From: Bacteroidales bacterium
Lineage (GTDB): Bacteria > Bacteroidota > Bacteroidia > Bacteroidales > VadinHA17
DNA length: 48,780 nucleotides
Assembly (NCBI GenBank): GCA_003141525.1
Contig: PLML01000114.1
Location: forward strand, 1,939 to 50,718
Reading direction: 5' to 3'
Shown here: positions 168 through 24,817 of the stretch, one piece after another
Position numbering within the stretch: position 1 is the stretch's first letter
How the letters are laid out: every line of letters starts with the position of its first letter
Position numbers and translations under genes: made by a program
Notes under the pieces: generated by a model
Told to the model about the DNA's origin: nothing
The model's database searches: none
Seen by the model: the letters and a program-made list of their open reading frames with translations, nothing else

Positions 168-542
168 TTACTTCTTAGGCCTTTTAGTACCATATTTTGA
201 TCTTCTCTGAGTACGTCCATCAACTCCTGAAGTGTCGAGAGCACCACGAACCAGATGATAACGAACACCTGGGAGATCTTTAACCCTGCCACCTCTGATC
301 AGTACGATCGAGTGTTCCTGCAAATTATGGCCTTCTCCCGGAATATAAGCATTGACTTCTTTCTGGTTGGTCAGCCTAACCCTGGCTACCTTCCTCATGG
401 CTGAATTAGGTTTCTTTGGTGTTGTGGTGTAAACACGTACGCAAACACCCCTTCTCTGAGGACATGAATCCAGAGCAGGTGCTTTACTTTTATCTACCAG
501 TTTCTTCCTGCCTTTTCTTACTAATTGCTGAATTGTCGGCAT
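168..542 (-). CDS. rpsL: 30S ribosomal protein S12
   Basis: [12 protein letters not shown]...[21 protein letters not shown]...[23 protein letters not shown] is canonical S12. Confidence 0.98.
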
Positions 543-588: not shown

Positions 589-619
589 CAAAGGTATTGG
601 TTTTATTTTTTAATTCAAA
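589..619 (-). promoter_or_regulatory. Bacteroidota-type promoter for rpsL-rpsG (-7 TACCTTTG, -33 TTTG)
   Basis: Plus strand CAAAGGTA (589-596), then a 19-nt spacer, then CAAA (616-619); on the minus strand TTTG-N19-TACCTTTG, about 47 nt upstream of the rpsL ATG. Confidence 0.6.
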
Positions 620-907
620 ATCAAGTTGCATTATTTTATAAAACAATATATGATACCTGTATCAAAAGCCTGAATATGATAAATATTCAGGTCACTATTA
701 CGCACCCTTAAGCATGTTCAGAATCAATATATCTTACTAAAAATGTAAGTTATCAACAGGTTCCTTCCCGATCTTTCCCCATGAAAAACGTTTTGTAAAC
801 TTACTGAGAGAGAAAAAACGGTACTCCTGTATTTCAAAAAACTGCTGCAAAGGAAATAAAAAATTTGTAATTCTCGCTGCTTTCTTAAAGTGTTTTTAAA
901 AAATTAT

Positions 908-915
908 TATTTTTG
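908..915 (+). promoter_or_regulatory. Possible -7 element (TATTTTTG) for the EF-G-like gene
   Basis: Matches TAnnTTTG, about 56 nt upstream of the ATG; no clear -33 TTTG. Confidence 0.35.
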
Positions 916-970: not shown

Positions 971-3127
971 ATGAAAACATTCCAGGCGGACCAGATTAAA
1001 AACATTGCCCTGTTGGGTAACTCGGGTTCAGGCAAAACAACCCTTGCAGAAGCAATGCTTTTTATTGGCGGCATTATTGAAAGAAGAGGAACAATTGAAG
1101 GAAATAATACAGTTTCAGACTATCGTCCGATCGAGCATGAAAATGGAAACTCAATCTTTTCGACAGTTCTGTATACAGAATTTCAGAATCATAAAATAAA
1201 CATTCTTGATACACCTGGACTGGATGATTTCAGTGGCGGAGTCATTTCCTCACTTTTTGCCTCCGATGCTGCGGTAATGACTATTAATGTGCAGAACGGC
1301 GTTGAAGTAGGAACCGAGATACATTTCCGTCATGCGGAAAAAGAAAACAAGCCACTTATTATTGTAATTAACGGACTGGATCACGAAAAAGCCAACTTTG
1401 AGAAGTCGCTTGAAATGCTTAAAGAAAGATTAAGCAACAATGTCATACTTATTCAGTATCCTGTCAACGAAGGAACCGGATTCAATTCTATTATCGACAT
1501 TCTTAAAATGAAAATGCTCCGGTATTCTAAAGATGGAGGAAAGGCAGAAATAGTTGATATACCAGCTGATCAGGCAGCCAGAGCTGCAGAATTGCATAGC
1601 GCCCTTGTTGAAAAAGCTGCCGAGAGTGATGAAGCTCTGATGGAACTGTTTTTTTCAAATGATTCTCTTACAGAAGACGAAATAAAAAAAGGTATTGCAA
1701 AAGGGATAAGGACAAGAGGTATGTTCCCGGTTTTATGTCTCTCTTCAAAACATAATATTGGCGTTGACCGTCTCATGGAATTTATCGCTACCGAGGCACC
1801 CTCTATTTCTGACATGCCTGCTCCGGTTAACAGCAAAGGAAATGAAGTTAAACCAAATCCTTCAGGACCGGCTTCCGTGTACGTCTTTAAATCCTCAATT
1901 GAAGAGCATATAGGTGAAATAAACTATTTCAGGGTATATTCCGGAAAAATATCCGAAAACTTAGACGTCATAAATAGCAACAATGGTACAAAAGAGCGTC
2001 TTGCCCAGCTTTATGTAAGCGCCGGGAAGAACCGGACAAGGGTACCTGAACTTCATGTAGGAGATATCGGGGCATTTGTTAAGCTTAAAAATACCAAGAC
2101 AGGGCACACGCTCAATGTCCCTGGTAACGACTGGAAATATGAAGGTGTGAAATTTCCTGAACCAAAGTACAGAACAGCAATTAAGGCTCAGAGTGAAAGT
2201 GATGATGAGAAACTTGGTGAAGCTTTAAACAAAATACACCTTGAGGATCCGACTATTGTTATTGAATACTCGAAAGAATTAAAACAGATAATTGTTCACG
2301 GGCAGGGAGAATATCATCTTAATATTATGAAATGGCATCTTGATAATATTTATAAGATACCAACAAACTTTAATGCTCCTAAGATACCTTACCGCGAGAC
2401 TATTACCAAAACCGCGCAGGCCGACTATCGTCATAAGAAACAATCAGGCGGGGCAGGTCAGTTTGGTGAGGTTCATATGATAATTGAACCTTTCGAAGAG
2501 GGCTCAAAAGAAGCGACAATGCAAAAAATCAATGGCAAGGATATTAAGATTTCGGTTCGCGACAAAGAAGAGATTGCCCTTCCCTGGGGAGGAAAACTGG
2601 TATATGTAAACAGTATTGTCGGTGGTTCTATTGATGCCCGATTTATGCCAGCAATCCTGAAAGGGATTATGGAGAAGATGGAGGTTGGCCCTCTTACCGG
2701 ATCATATGCCCGCGATATAAGAGTTTATGTATATGATGGAAAGATGCACCCGGTTGATTCAAATGAAATTTCTTTCCGTCTTGCAGGAAGAAATGCATTC
2801 AGTCAGGCTTTTAAAAATGCCGGTCCCAAGATCCTGGAACCAGTTTATGATGTTGAAATAATGGTCCCTTCCGATCGAATGGGTGATGTGATAAGCGACC
2901 TTCAGGGCAGACGTGGAATGGTTCTTGGCATGGCAAGTGAAAAACGTTTTGAAGTTATCAAAGCGAAGGTTCCCCTAGCAGAGATGAATAAGTATTCCAC
3001 TGCGCTAAGTTCTATAACAGGCGGTCGTGCAATGTATTCAATGAAATTCGCTGAATATTCACAAGTTCCTGGGGATGTACAGGAGGCTGTTATCAAGGCT
3101 TATTCTGAGGAAGAAGAAGAAGAATAG
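971..3127 (+). CDS. Elongation factor G-like protein (EF-G2 / FusA2 paralogue) with degenerate G-domain motifs
   Basis: 718 aa; P-loop-like GNSGSGKTT, DTPGLDDF in place of DTPGHVDF, NGLD in place of NKxD; domain IV motifs QSGGAGQFGEV and YDGKMHPVDSNEISF retained. Confidence 0.9.
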   Translation: MKTFQADQIKNIALLGNSGSGKTTLAEAMLFIGGIIERRGTIEGNNTVSDYRPIEHENGNSIFSTVLYTEFQNHKINILDTPGLDDFSGGVISSLFASDAAVMTINVQNGVEVGTEIHFRHAEKENKPLIIVINGLDHEKANFEKSLEMLKERLSNNVILIQYPVNEGTGFNSIIDILKMKMLRYSKDGGKAEIVDIPADQAARAAELHSALVEKAAESDEALMELFFSNDSLTEDEIKKGIAKGIRTRGMFPVLCLSSKHNIGVDRLMEFIATEAPSISDMPAPVNSKGNEVKPNPSGPASVYVFKSSIEEHIGEINYFRVYSGKISENLDVINSNNGTKERLAQLYVSAGKNRTRVPELHVGDIGAFVKLKNTKTGHTLNVPGNDWKYEGVKFPEPKYRTAIKAQSESDDEKLGEALNKIHLEDPTIVIEYSKELKQIIVHGQGEYHLNIMKWHLDNIYKIPTNFNAPKIPYRETITKTAQADYRHKKQSGGAGQFGEVHMIIEPFEEGSKEATMQKINGKDIKISVRDKEEIALPWGGKLVYVNSIVGGSIDARFMPAILKGIMEKMEVGPLTGSYARDIRVYVYDGKMHPVDSNEISFRLAGRNAFSQAFKNAGPKILEPVYDVEIMVPSDRMGDVISDLQGRRGMVLGMASEKRFEVIKAKVPLAEMNKYSTALSSITGGRAMYSMKFAEYSQVPGDVQEAVIKAYSEEEEEE

Positions 3128-3508: not shown

Positions 3509-6500
3509 TTATTTATTGGATTCAATTTGTATTGTATTACCATTATCACCATTCATGAAATCAAATTCGGAATAAACGGCCAGATTTTTATTTCTCTCAC
3601 CGCGTTTTGAGAATATCGCATAAACTACAGGGACAAGTATCAGCGTAACCATTGTAGAGAAAACAAGGCCTCCGATTACGGCAACACCCATTGGGCTCCA
3701 GAGCTCTGATCCCGAACCCTTGCTCATTGCGAGAGGTAACATACCCAGAATAGTTGTTGCAGATGTCATAATTACAGGCCGCAGACGTGAACGTCCTGAA
3801 ATCGCTATAGCTTCATATAATTCATGGCCTCTTTCTCTCATCAGGTTTATGAAATCGACAAGAACGATTGCATTTTTAACCACAATACCTATAAGCATCA
3901 CTGCCCCTATACCTGATATTACACTCAGAGTAGTATTAGATAAAAACAAAGCGATTGCAACACCTGAAAATGCAAACGGTATAGAGAACATTATGATAAA
4001 AGGCATTTTAAGTGACTCAAATTGCGATGCCATGATCAGATATACCAATATGAGGCTTATCATCATCAGCATGGCAATATCCTTAAATGCATCCATCTGT
4101 TCTTTGATAGCTCCTGAGATCTGAACCATAACTCCACCGGGAAGGGATGTCTCATCAATAGCTTTCTGGACATCAACCTGTAAATCTGTCAGAGACCTCT
4201 TATAAGGTGTAAATGATACTCTTACAATGCGTTCCTTGCGTTTACGCTCAATGCTTGGGGGTGACCAGTACTCTTTTATCTGAGCAATTTCCCCAAGCCT
4301 GATTACCTGTCCCATAGGATTTGTTATGCCAATGTTCTCCACATCGGTAAGAGTGCTCCTGGCATTTTTCTTAAAACGTACTACAACATCATACTCATCA
4401 CCAAACTGACGAAGACGTGTTGCAGTAAGACCATCGATCCTGTTCTTAACGGCCGTCGATACCATAGCAGTGTTAAGTCCATTGGCAATCATCTTATTCT
4501 GGTCAAAGATTATCTGAAGTTCTGGTTTTGATTTGGCCCGGCTTATTGTAACATCCTTTGTACCCTGAATATTTTTAATCTTTTTTGCAAGCTCTTCTGC
4601 AACCAGGTTTGTTTCAGAGATATTGTATCCATAAACTTCAACATCAACTGCATTACCTCCAAAGCTGCCCATATTATCAGAGGTACTTAAAGAAAAGTTG
4701 ATAATTTCAGACATTTTTGAAAGATCGGTTCTCATCTCCTCGACAATCTCAAACACCGATTTCTTTCTCGCGTCAATCGGAGTCAGAGAAAGGCTGTAAG
4801 TTATCCTATGTGTGCCTCCGGCACTGAAGATGGATGCAAATCCACCCTGATCATCAGCTCCTGTAGAGGTTGCTATTATCTTTACTTCAGGATATTTGGT
4901 TCTTATAAGTTCATCTATTTTATCAGCAGTCTTAATTGTTTCATCAACCCTTGTGCCGGTTTGAAGATCAATTGTTGCTGAAATTCTTGACTCATCTGCC
5001 TGGGGGAAAAATTCAGTTTTAATTATTCCAAAGAGGCTCATGGAGCCGACAAAAACTACCACTGCAATAATACTAACCACCGTTTTATGATGCAGAGCCC
5101 AGCGAAGTGTTCTCTCATAAAAATTATCAAACCAGTTAAGTCCTCTCCTGATACTTCCGTCATATGTCCAGAAGGGTGCATTCTTCCTGATAGGATACCA
5201 TTTCAGCATAAGGGAGCTCAGAGTTGGAGTCAGTGTTATTGCAGCGAACACGGATGTAACAATAGTGATTGTCACTATCATACCTAGCTGTTTGAAAAGT
5301 ACTCCCATAAGTCCTTTAATAAATGTTAACGGGAAGAATACGGCAACAACGGTAAGAGTGGTTACAATAACAGCCAGCCATACCTCATTGGTTGCATAAA
5401 TTGATGCTTCTCTAGGACGGCTCCCCCTCTCAATATGCTTTGTTATGTTCTCAAGAACCACGATGGCATCATCAACCACCATCCCGATCGCTATTGACAG
5501 GGATGTGAGTGAGATAATATTTATCGAAGCCCCTGTAACAAAAAGATAAATAAAAGCCACTATTAATGAGATCGGGATTGTCAGAATGATGATAAATGTT
5601 GCCCTCCATCTTCCCAGGAAAAACAGCACTACCAGTATAACGAATATACCCGCATACATCAATGTTTCTGTAAGATTGCTGATTGATCCGGTTATGAATG
5701 ATGCACTATCAAAAAGTTTTTCAATTTTTACGTCCGGTGGTAAATCTTTCTTGAGAGTTGCCAGGGTTTTCTCAACCTCTTTGGTGACTTTAACCGTATT
5801 ACCGCCAGATTGTTTCTGGACGTACATGCTCATCCCTCTGGCACCATTAATCTTAGTATCAAGTTTCGATTCGCGTATTGTATCTCGAATTTCAGCAATA
5901 TCTTTAAGATAGACACTGTTTCCATTAAAACTGCTAATAACAAGATTCTTAACAGTTTCACTTTCAGGAAATTCACCCTGAATACGCAAAGGGTAGTCTG
6001 TTTTGCCCATTTCAAGATAACCTGCCGGCATATTCATGTTTTCGGCTCTCAATACATTTCCTATCTGTTCTATTGTAAGGTTATAGGCCTCCATTTTTCT
6101 AGGATCAACATCTATATAGACTTTTCGTCCTGGTACGCCGGCAAGTGAAACAGAACCGACACCCTCGATTCTGTTAAGGGGATTAACAACCTTCTCATCA
6201 AGTATTTTCTCAAGACCTGCATAACTCTCCTTTGCAGTTATTGCATAGAAGACAATAGGCATGAAACTTGTGCTGAATTTTATGATTGTAGGTTTATCGC
6301 AATCTTCAGGTAACACTCTCTCAGTGAAGCTGAGGGCACTCCTTATATCATTCGATGCCTCATCAAGGTTTGTTCCATATTCAAAGTTCATGAAGATAAC
6401 AGAAGTTGCATCACTTGAGGTGGATGTTATCTCTTTCAACTTACTGACTGAGTTAAGGGCATTTTCCAGGGGCCGGGTTACATTCGATTCAATATCGGAT

Positions 6501-6667
6501 GCACTCGCTCCGGAATAATTCGTATAAATAACCACAAATGGCAATTCCATTTCAGGATAAAGATCCACGGGCAATTGCGTCAGGGAATAGATCCCCATAA
6601 CCATCAGTCCGACAAATATCAGAATGGTTGTTACCGGTCTTTTTACGGAAGCACTATATATACTCAT
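3509..6667 (-). CDS. Efflux RND transporter permease (AcrB/HAE1-like)
   Basis: 1052 aa; MSIYSASVKRPVTTILIFVGLMVMGIYSL, GMVVDDAIVVLENI, FPQADESRISATIDLQTGT. Confidence 0.95.
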   Translation of the reverse strand: MSIYSASVKRPVTTILIFVGLMVMGIYSLTQLPVDLYPEMELPFVVIYTNYSGASASDIESNVTRPLENALNSVSKLKEITSTSSDATSVIFMNFEYGTNLDEASNDIRSALSFTERVLPEDCDKPTIIKFSTSFMPIVFYAITAKESYAGLEKILDEKVVNPLNRIEGVGSVSLAGVPGRKVYIDVDPRKMEAYNLTIEQIGNVLRAENMNMPAGYLEMGKTDYPLRIQGEFPESETVKNLVISSFNGNSVYLKDIAEIRDTIRESKLDTKINGARGMSMYVQKQSGGNTVKVTKEVEKTLATLKKDLPPDVKIEKLFDSASFITGSISNLTETLMYAGIFVILVVLFFLGRWRATFIIILTIPISLIVAFIYLFVTGASINIISLTSLSIAIGMVVDDAIVVLENITKHIERGSRPREASIYATNEVWLAVIVTTLTVVAVFFPLTFIKGLMGVLFKQLGMIVTITIVTSVFAAITLTPTLSSLMLKWYPIRKNAPFWTYDGSIRRGLNWFDNFYERTLRWALHHKTVVSIIAVVVFVGSMSLFGIIKTEFFPQADESRISATIDLQTGTRVDETIKTADKIDELIRTKYPEVKIIATSTGADDQGGFASIFSAGGTHRITYSLSLTPIDARKKSVFEIVEEMRTDLSKMSEIINFSLSTSDNMGSFGGNAVDVEVYGYNISETNLVAEELAKKIKNIQGTKDVTISRAKSKPELQIIFDQNKMIANGLNTAMVSTAVKNRIDGLTATRLRQFGDEYDVVVRFKKNARSTLTDVENIGITNPMGQVIRLGEIAQIKEYWSPPSIERKRKERIVRVSFTPYKRSLTDLQVDVQKAIDETSLPGGVMVQISGAIKEQMDAFKDIAMLMMISLILVYLIMASQFESLKMPFIIMFSIPFAFSGVAIALFLSNTTLSVISGIGAVMLIGIVVKNAIVLVDFINLMRERGHELYEAIAISGRSRLRPVIMTSATTILGMLPLAMSKGSGSELWSPMGVAVIGGLVFSTMVTLILVPVVYAIFSKRGERNKNLAVYSEFDFMNGDNGNTIQIESNK

Positions 6668-6692
6668 TTTTTTATAGATGAAAGTCTGATAG

Positions 6693-7757
6693 TTATTTAG
6701 TTATTTCAATTTTGTCACCATTGATCAGTTTTGCCTGTCCTTCGGTTATAAGCATATCACCTTCTTTAATATTCGAAGATATAACCTCAAGTTGGTCATC
6801 AAATCGTTTTCCTATAGTGACTTCAATTCTTTCGGCAGTGTTTGTTCTCGCAACAAATACAAATCTGATGTTGGTACCTTCCTGTACCAAAACAGTGTTT
6901 GCCGGCACAACAAATGTTTCAACTTCACCCAGATCCATTGAAACTCTTGCAAACATCCCCGGTTTCAGAAGATCATTTCTGTTAGGAAGAGCGACTTCAG
7001 TTATGAATGATCTTGTTGCTGAATTTATTGTCGGGTAAATACGAAAGACAGAACCGGTGAATGCTTCTTTTTTGTAAACATCCGCAGTAATATTTGCTTT
7101 CATCCCATTCTTAATCAAAGGAAAGTACTGTTCTGAGATATTTACATCAACTTTAAGGGGGTTAACCTGCTGAACTGTAACAACTGCTGACCTGCCTGAC
7201 TGAGTTGTGGGAGAACCTGAATAGATTTCGCCATTTTCAAAATATTTTCCTGTAACAATACCGGTGAAAGGAGCTTTTAATAAAGTATTCTGCTCCATGA
7301 ACTCCACATTCTTTTTTGTTACATCATATTGAGTCTTCATCTGGTCATACTGCTGCTGTTTGGCACTTCCGGACCTAAGAAGTGTGTCGATTCTGTTTAG
7401 ATCCTTTTCCAGGTTGCTCAACTGCAATTTTAACTGAAACAGCTGTGTTCGGTCCATAAGAAAGAGTTTATCACCTTTATTTATCCTGTCACCTACTTCA
7501 ACATATATTTTTTCTATTCTTCCGGGAGTTGAAGGAGCCATGTTTACCTCTTCGAAAGGAAGAATGGTAGCTGTATAGTCTATTGTCCTTGAAATTTTTG
7601 TTTTTGATAAAGCCATTACTTTAACCGGGATTGCAGCTTTCTCAGCCGGAGTTGCAGGACTTGTAGCTGAAGTTGCCTTATTTTTGTCTTTTGATGAACA
7701 GGATGAAATGAAAAGTCCGGTTATCAGTATTGCCAGAATAGAATTAAAGTTTTTCAT
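6693..7757 (-). CDS. Efflux RND transporter periplasmic adaptor (MFP), lipoprotein
   Basis: Lipobox LFISSCSS; lipoyl/hairpin adaptor layout; APFTGIVTGKYFENGEIYSG. Confidence 0.92.
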   Translation of the reverse strand: MKNFNSILAILITGLFISSCSSKDKNKATSATSPATPAEKAAIPVKVMALSKTKISRTIDYTATILPFEEVNMAPSTPGRIEKIYVEVGDRINKGDKLFLMDRTQLFQLKLQLSNLEKDLNRIDTLLRSGSAKQQQYDQMKTQYDVTKKNVEFMEQNTLLKAPFTGIVTGKYFENGEIYSGSPTTQSGRSAVVTVQQVNPLKVDVNISEQYFPLIKNGMKANITADVYKKEAFTGSVFRIYPTINSATRSFITEVALPNRNDLLKPGMFARVSMDLGEVETFVVPANTVLVQEGTNIRFVFVARTNTAERIEVTIGKRFDDQLEVISSNIKEGDMLITEGQAKLINGDKIEITK

Positions 7758-7790
7758 TTTTTATTGATTTGATGGTTTAGGTTCAATTAA

Positions 7791-9131
7791 TTACATGTTA
7801 TTCAATAATTTATCTAATGCGAGCTTTGTCTGAAGCAAGTTCATTAAAGAAGTTACGTAGTTATTCTCAGCCTGCAAAAAAAGAGAATTTGACTGTGTCA
7901 GGTCAAGGCTTGAAGCCATTCCCTGCTTGTATTTATTTTCCATGCTGGCATATACTCTCTTTGATACATCTACGTTGGCTTTCTGGCTTTTGTAATTCAG
8001 GTTTGCATTTACAAGATTATATCTTAGCTGCTTTTCCTGTAGAAGCAACTGTTCGGTAACCATTTCTTTTGTTGTTTTAGCTTTCTCGTAATTTATCTGC
8101 GCTTTTTTTATCTGACTGTATTTCTGGCCGCTGGCAAAAATAGGAATGGAAAGCTGAAGCCCGGTCATTGAGTTCTGGTACCATTGCTGAGTCCTGACTT
8201 TATCACCCATGCCTGTAATTCCATAACTGTAAAAACCTGCTAATGAGGGTAAAATTGATGCCTTTTGAGATTTAAGGGCAAGCGAAGACATTTTCTCCTG
8301 ATTCTCAATGAGAAGATAATTTAAGTTTTGTTTATGATCGAATTGCTGCGACAGCAGGGCTTCAATGTTTATTTCAGAAGTAAGCCCTTCAAGTGTTTCA
8401 GTCAGAACTATTTTTGTATCGGCAGTGACGCCAAGCTGGAACCTCAGAAGATTATAATTCATTTCAATAGTACGCTGCATTGAGCTTCGGGTATTTTCGA
8501 CCATTGTAACATTTGATACCATCTGGTCAACATCAGTTGATTCGGCCATACCGGCTGTAAACATTACCCTGGTTGATTTAAGAGTTTCATTAAGATTTGC
8601 AATATTGCCATCGAGTATCTGAAGGGTTTTTTCTGAGACAAGTATCAGGAAGTATGCCGAGCTGACAGACTCTTTTGTATCAAGTTCTGATTTGGATAAG
8701 TTCTGTTCACTAAGTTTTTGGGCCAGTTTTGTAGTCTCAATACCAATATAAAATGGTGCATTGTACAGCAATAAACTTGCCTGAACTGTGGCACCTGAAT
8801 TATACTGTGATCCAAAAGTAATCGGCACCTTCGTACCAGCTGGTTGCCCGAAAAATTCACCCGGCAACAGAGTGGTCATTAATTTAAGATTATCTGTAAA
8901 TGAACCGGTTGCGCTGATCTGAGGTAATCCATTTGAGATAGTCTCCCATAATGCGATCTTTGATGCCTGAACATCCATTTTTGATGTGATCACCATCTTA
9001 TTATGCTGAATTGCATATTCCTGTGCCTCTTTTAAGGAAAGTTTCAGGTCAACGTAGCTATTCTGTGCCTGTAAAATCCCTCCTATTATTAGGAATAATA
9101 GTAAAACTGTCAGAACTTCTTTCTTTTTCAT
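7791..9131 (-). CDS. TolC family outer membrane efflux protein
   Basis: Signal peptide; coiled-coil repeats; LSLKEAQEYAIQHNK; operon position. Confidence 0.92.
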   Translation of the reverse strand: MKKKEVLTVLLLFLIIGGILQAQNSYVDLKLSLKEAQEYAIQHNKMVITSKMDVQASKIALWETISNGLPQISATGSFTDNLKLMTTLLPGEFFGQPAGTKVPITFGSQYNSGATVQASLLLYNAPFYIGIETTKLAQKLSEQNLSKSELDTKESVSSAYFLILVSEKTLQILDGNIANLNETLKSTRVMFTAGMAESTDVDQMVSNVTMVENTRSSMQRTIEMNYNLLRFQLGVTADTKIVLTETLEGLTSEINIEALLSQQFDHKQNLNYLLIENQEKMSSLALKSQKASILPSLAGFYSYGITGMGDKVRTQQWYQNSMTGLQLSIPIFASGQKYSQIKKAQINYEKAKTTKEMVTEQLLLQEKQLRYNLVNANLNYKSQKANVDVSKRVYASMENKYKQGMASSLDLTQSNSLFLQAENNYVTSLMNLLQTKLALDKLLNNM

Positions 9132-9176
9132 TTCAATAATTTATTATCGATGCGAGTATAGCTTAAGTAACAGGTT

Positions 9177-9782
9177 TTAAAAGTCTTTTGCTAGCTTGTT
9201 AATAAGATCAAGACCATTGGGGGTTGAAATTCCCCTTAGGTAAATGAAGAAAATATTTCTGATTACATCGCGTCTTGAAAAGAGTTCATAAGGATAAAGG
9301 TCATTATCCATAATCGATCTCCCAAGGTTATAAAGGCAACGGTTGACCAGATCAGGATTAATTTCTTTTCTGAAGAGACCTTCCTTAATGCCTTTTTCAA
9401 TAACCTGAAAATGATTTCTGTAATCGGGCATTTCAATATTATCTGCATTCTTCATCAGTACAACGTGATGATACTTCTTCAGGTCGGACTGAAACGCAGG
9501 GCTCATGGATTGAAAATTATCTCTGTTGATTTCAAGCATTTTGAATATCGCAACAATTGAATTCTCTGACTCATCAAGAACGCGTTTTACCAGGTCCTTC
9601 TGTTGTCTGGCCATCCTTGTCAGTACCTCCATCAAGAGTTCATCTTTGTCTGAGAAGACTTCATATATTGTTCTCTTTGAAATACCAAGCTGATTTGCGA
9701 GAGAATCCATTGTTACCGATCTTATTCCATAAGTCCTGAATAATTCTGCTGCTCTTTCTATTATCCGGTCCCTGACTTCCAT
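9177..9782 (-). CDS. TetR/AcrR family transcriptional regulator
   Basis: RIIERAAELFRTYGIRSVTMDSLANQLGISKRTIYEVFSDKDELL is a TetR N-terminal HTH. Confidence 0.93.
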   Translation of the reverse strand: MEVRDRIIERAAELFRTYGIRSVTMDSLANQLGISKRTIYEVFSDKDELLMEVLTRMARQQKDLVKRVLDESENSIVAIFKMLEINRDNFQSMSPAFQSDLKKYHHVVLMKNADNIEMPDYRNHFQVIEKGIKEGLFRKEINPDLVNRCLYNLGRSIMDNDLYPYELFSRRDVIRNIFFIYLRGISTPNGLDLINKLAKDF

Positions 9783-24657: not shown

Positions 24658-24733
24658 AATCCTGTTAATTAATTCATCTTCAAGATCAAGAAAATGAGGT
24701 GGTTAATTAAAGCTGATTTGTTGGATACTCTCT

Positions 24734-24806
24734 TTTCCCTCCGCCGGCATTACCCGGATCAGGTTTAAGGGTATGATCTCAGCCCGTAGTTATAAGGCAC
24801 CCCATT
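24734..24806 (-). ncRNA. TPP riboswitch (THI element)
   Basis: Minus strand GGGGTGCC-TTATAACTAC-GGGCTGAGATCATACCCTTAAACCTGATCCGGGTAATGCCGGCGGAGGGA carries the conserved TPP core. Confidence 0.96.
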
Positions 24807-24817
24807 ATTTGACACTT

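Follow-up and report, generated by a model that had tools for sequence, protein, structure and literature searches.

Which kind of elongation factor is encoded by an EF-G-like gene standing back to back with rpsL, and what does this position entail for its control? We addressed these questions in a window of 48,780 nucleotides (the whole stretch of DNA analysed) from a Bacteroidales bacterium, whose relevant features are collected in Table 1. An earlier note, made from the sequence, had described an EF-G paralogue divergent from rpsL and belonging to the Bacteroides EF-G2 class, and both statements are borne out. The ORF map places the two genes on opposite strands, and the fusA2 product matches the NCBIfam profile NF058620 (EFG2_Bacteroid) with 1199.4 bits over positions 1-717 of 717, for a cut-off of 1000. 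In the same profile search, all canonical EF-G equivalogs score it under their cut-offs, TIGR00484 reaching 514 for a required 659.4. The closest solved relative in sequence is PDB 7uvp/8dmf (981 bits, full length), and 8dmf, the ribosome-bound EF-G2 of Bacteroides thetaiotaomicron, is also the top fold match of an AlphaFold model of medium confidence (pLDDT 72) in which domain IV is poorly resolved. Aligned end to end over 718 amino acids, the protein shares 60% identity with B. thetaiotaomicron EF-G2 and 34% with the EF-G1 of a same-genus relative, and EF-G2s form a single fully supported clade separate from EF-G1s in a quick FastTree tree. Orthology with Bacteroides EF-G2 is thus supported by curated model, sequence, fold and tree. 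Moreover, since dN/dS within the genus is 0.03-0.04 (0.05-0.06 for fusA), fusA2 is functional and under strong purifying selection, similar to fusA. The family itself is already known from gut Bacteroides, of which this protein is a further member; what is new is the setting of the locus, its altered promoter and a structured RNA.

Table 1. Features of the fusA2-str region (window positions, except for canonical fusA)
Feature	Position	Strand	Remark
fusA2, 718-aa EF-G2	971-3127	+	intact ORF, ATG start, NF058620 match
P-loop GNSGSGKTT, residues 16-24	1016-1042	+	retains GK[T/S]; Asp of AHIDAGKT missing
Switch I NGNS, residues 58-61, replacing RGIT	1142-1153	+	Thr replaced by conserved Ser
DTPGL, residues 80-84, replacing DTPGH	1208-1222	+	catalytic His lost
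NGLD, residues 134-137, replacing NKMD	1370-1381	+	from motif alignment
Domain IV loop QSGGAGQFGE, residues 491-500	2441-2470	+	nearly invariant
EF-G2-only domain IV insert, residues 515-542	2513-2596	+	missing from EF-G1
Domain IV loop DGKMHPVDSNE, residues 589-599	2735-2767	+	nearly invariant
rpsL (S12)	168-542	-	ORF, first gene of the str operon
rpsG	start 148	-	followed by fusA, outside the window
Canonical fusA	G000:C3:2-1766	-	after rpsG; AHIDAGKT, RGIT, DTPGH, NKMD present
-7 element TATTTTTG, putative EF-G2 promoter	908-915	+	TAnnTTTG match (Bacteroidota -7 element)
-7 element TACCTTTG, putative proximal rpsL promoter	589-596	-	also in other str-linked families
Conserved TTCCTTTGC, presumed near-consensus -7 element	846-854	-	just upstream of the structured RNA
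Candidate structured RNA, ~90 nt	744-832	-	covarying, pseudoknot-capable, reads towards rpsL

The GTPase core was compared between 140 aligned EF-G2s and 35 canonical EF-Gs, all 35 of which keep AHIDAGKT, RGIT, DTPGH and NKMD intact. The catalytic histidine, present in 35/35 canonical proteins, is found in none of the 140 EF-G2s, where S, L, A, F or M takes its place, and the NKxD lysine is missing in 136/140; such a distribution indicates that the substitutions did not arise by chance. The P-loop aspartate of AHIDAGKT is also lost in all 140. In the EF-G2 of L011, as in 4 of the 140 in total, the lysine is retained (NKLD) and the histidine is missing. On the other side of the balance stand the features associated with nucleotide binding: the P-loop GK, followed by T or S, and DxPG with its aspartate are retained in 140/140, the G4 asparagine in 138/140, the G4 acidic residue (Asp or Glu) is conserved, and the switch I threonine is replaced in 139/140 by a serine that preserves the hydroxyl. 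Judged from these alignments, the EF-G2 core is selectively altered rather than decayed, with hydrolysis features gone and binding features retained. The replaced histidine, NGLD and the P-loop had been correctly read in the earlier note. Its loss of RGIT stands as well, with NGNS instead of GNSI as the counterpart once aligned to the canonical proteins, and its term "degraded" is too strong for a core that retains its nucleotide-binding signature.

The most conserved part of EF-G2 is domain IV, and its translocase loops, already noted as retained, are ~99% conserved among the 140 sequences. The domain also carries an insert at residues 515-542. For an EF-G2-specific inserted region, Han et al. 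(EMBO J 2023) reportedly give a size of roughly 26 residues; we take that region to be this insert, its location being our own assignment.

The best explanation of these features, and a highly probable one, is that fusA2 encodes a full-length EF-G paralogue that would bind the ribosome and translocate tRNA-mRNA without GTP hydrolysis. We infer the latter property by inheritance from the published B. thetaiotaomicron orthologue, for which translocation without GTP hydrolysis is described (Han et al., in the account given by PMC12775393). By extension from this orthologue, any bound nucleotide would have no more than a structural part, binding itself would drive translocation, and it is the EF-G2-specific insert, not hydrolysis, on which release would depend; at low levels of EF-G1, the factor would support a slow translation that spares energy. 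In B. thetaiotaomicron, carbon limitation raises fusA2 (BT2167) 238-fold under the control of BT4338 (Cur) and lowers fusA 10-fold, and gut colonisation requires fusA2 (PMC6989115, PMC10294740, PMC10994844).

Other readings of the protein have to be weighed against this one. It could be an ordinary, slower EF-G, in which the switch I serine and the residue replacing the histidine sustain residual hydrolysis. The conservation of GK[T/S], DxPG, the G4 Asn and Asp/Glu and the serine hydroxyl speaks in this direction insofar as nucleotide binding is probably under selection; nevertheless, the histidine is replaced in all 140 EF-G2s and GTPase activity is reportedly missing from the B. thetaiotaomicron orthologue (Han et al., as relayed in PMC12775393), which makes this option improbable. 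Even less credit is due to the idea that the protein protects or recycles ribosomes (in the manner of TetQ or EF-G2mt) and does not act as a translocase. One PDB entry of the closest relative is labelled TetQ and Tet models do match the fusA2 product weakly, but the Tet(Q) model gives 124.5 for a cut-off of 1425, the domain IV loops are of the nearly invariant EF-G2 type, and 8dmf, of the same sequence as the TetQ-labelled entry, is titled B. thetaiotaomicron EF-G2.

A sole EF-G encoded by fusA2 is ruled out at the level of gene content, since a canonical fusA is also present: as anticipated in the earlier note, it follows rpsG and lies directly beyond the window. In the assembly, a frameshift near C3:468 interrupts this fusA, which the contig end also truncates, and one might argue from this that fusA2 is the only functional EF-G of the strain. 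This is the least plausible of the alternatives. The assembly is a draft and the break coincides with the edge of a contig, the C-terminus cut off there is found on contig C94 (followed by rpsJ, rplC, rplD, rplW and rplB), and relatives carry an intact fusA of ~700 amino acids at the same place. We therefore regard an assembly fault as the probable cause, a real mutation being possible. In some genomes of the order (L063, L065, L067, L069 and L071) there is yet another EF-G paralogue, in which the canonical GTPase motifs are complete. A translocase dispensing with GTP hydrolysis, next to a canonical EF-G1, is the reading that we retain.

How widespread are the protein and its arrangement? NF058620 is matched in all 41 relatives searched, 33 of them over the cut-off, only strong matches being counted since canonical EF-Gs match this profile weakly. 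EF-G2 is near universal in the order sample, and in the class sample the strict cut-off is exceeded in 60 of 396 genomes, while a further ~40 have matches of full or nearly full length that fall slightly short of it. This places a GTP-sparing EF-G2 well outside gut Bacteroides. The head-to-head arrangement with rpsL-rpsG-fusA occurs in every same-genus genome with sufficient contig reach, as well as in several other Bacteroidales families or lineages; Bacteroides-type EF-G2 loci adjoin hemW. A single origin of the str linkage is not supported, as seven changes are needed on the FastTree tree, and the arrangement may accordingly be old and repeatedly lost. Elsewhere in the window, an apparent RND efflux operon (3509-9782, minus strand) is putatively composed of a TetR-like regulator, an outer-membrane channel, a membrane fusion protein and an RND pump, all named by eye from the translations.

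The two settings differ in their upstream regions. An exact -7 element (TAnnTTTG) lies no more than 130 bp from the start in 29 of 30 str-linked loci, many of which are close relatives and hence not 30 independent cases, versus 2 of 31 hemW-linked loci (8% in shuffled sequence). Conversely, a Cur-type palindrome with at least 10 of 12 positions matched lies upstream in 18 of the 31 hemW-linked loci (5.6% in shuffled sequence) and in 0 of the 30 str-linked ones; near the fusA2 under study, no Cur (BT4338) site was found at up to two mismatches. The Cur site is a regulatory feature of Bacteroides members and does not define the EF-G2 protein. On sequence comparison, linkage to the str operon combined with a lost Cur site suggests at least one rewiring of EF-G2 control. 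Since the promoter differs, fusA2 expression may not be starvation-specific here, and the gut-starvation role of EF-G2 may fail for these mostly uncultured Bacteroidales.

Besides promoters, the intergenic region contains a block conserved in the genus and at three more Bacteroidales loci (L108, L109 and L120), in which we propose a candidate structured RNA. It comprises a CAGG/CCUG stem, an AGUA/GAA internal loop that in our reading resembles a bulged-G motif, and a longer stem changing on both sides; its apical GUAAGUU can pair with AACUUAC at the 3' end, giving a possible pseudoknot. In an alignment of 45 distinct sequences, fitted to the nested structure, 98.1% of pair cells form and six pairs change on both sides, the pseudoknot arms varying so little that covariation is neutral on them. 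Across 500 shuffles, values this high never occurred, pairing falls to 28-56% once the partners are slid, and the covariation test was also made on 22 sequences. Single sequences fold no better than their shuffles (z -0.4 to -1.2), so the case is based on covariation and conservation rather than on energy. The candidate is single copy in 52 of 58 genomes of the genus, and sampling 132 other genera of the order yielded no copy. It matches no family of Rfam 15, and our literature search found no paper on a Bacteroidetes rpsL leader. Elsewhere in the window, a TPP riboswitch is recognised at 24719-24814 on the minus strand (RF00059, 55.6 bits, gathering 54.3).

To which gene does this RNA belong? 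Its distance to rpsL is near constant (242-277, sd 6) and that to the EF-G2 gene variable (128-392, sd 60), and it is therefore most likely rpsL's. A plus-strand leader of EF-G2 was considered and rejected: the RNA folds poorly in this orientation (-3.5 kcal/mol, compared with -14.2 on the minus strand) and its distance is fixed to rpsL. A separate small RNA instead of an rpsL leader is possible, because rpsL has its own proximal -7 element. Between the candidate and rpsL, a hairpin CCTGAATAT...ATATTCAGG at about 666-694 on the minus strand is paired in several relatives despite varying sequence, with no clear U-tract. As a probable rpsL element, the covarying RNA may be a new leader of a ribosomal operon, a concrete proposal open to testing.

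The head-to-head position would let one intergenic region control both EF-G genes without a Bacteroides-type Cur site. More speculatively, and with the odds rather against it, the GTP-burning and GTP-sparing translocases might form one switch, in which back-to-back promoters (str operon with fusA on one side, fusA2 on the other) together with a pseudoknotted rpsL leader RNA would set the EF-G1:EF-G2 ratio without the Cur regulator.

Compared with known systems, canonical EF-G1 (fusA) shares the five-domain EF-G architecture and the domain IV HPVDS loop with the fusA2 product, and differs from it by keeping all four GTPase motifs and having no 515-542 insert. The TetM/TetO/TetQ protection proteins belong to the same EF-G-related translational GTPase superfamily, yet the fusA2 product scores far under their curated cut-offs. 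Mycobacterium smegmatis EF-G2 (PDB 9k0z) has in common the name and the status of a ribosome-binding EF-G paralogue; at 321 bits versus 981 for Bacteroides EF-G2, it is much more distant and thus a separate paralogue. Finally, the B. thetaiotaomicron protein is the closest counterpart, with the same losses of the histidine and of the NKxD lysine, the same domain IV loops and the same insert, whereas its G4 motif reads NQLD (Gln) in place of NGLD (Gly), and Bacteroides EF-G2 loci have hemW as neighbour where the present one faces rpsL head-to-head with a consensus -7 promoter and no Cur site.
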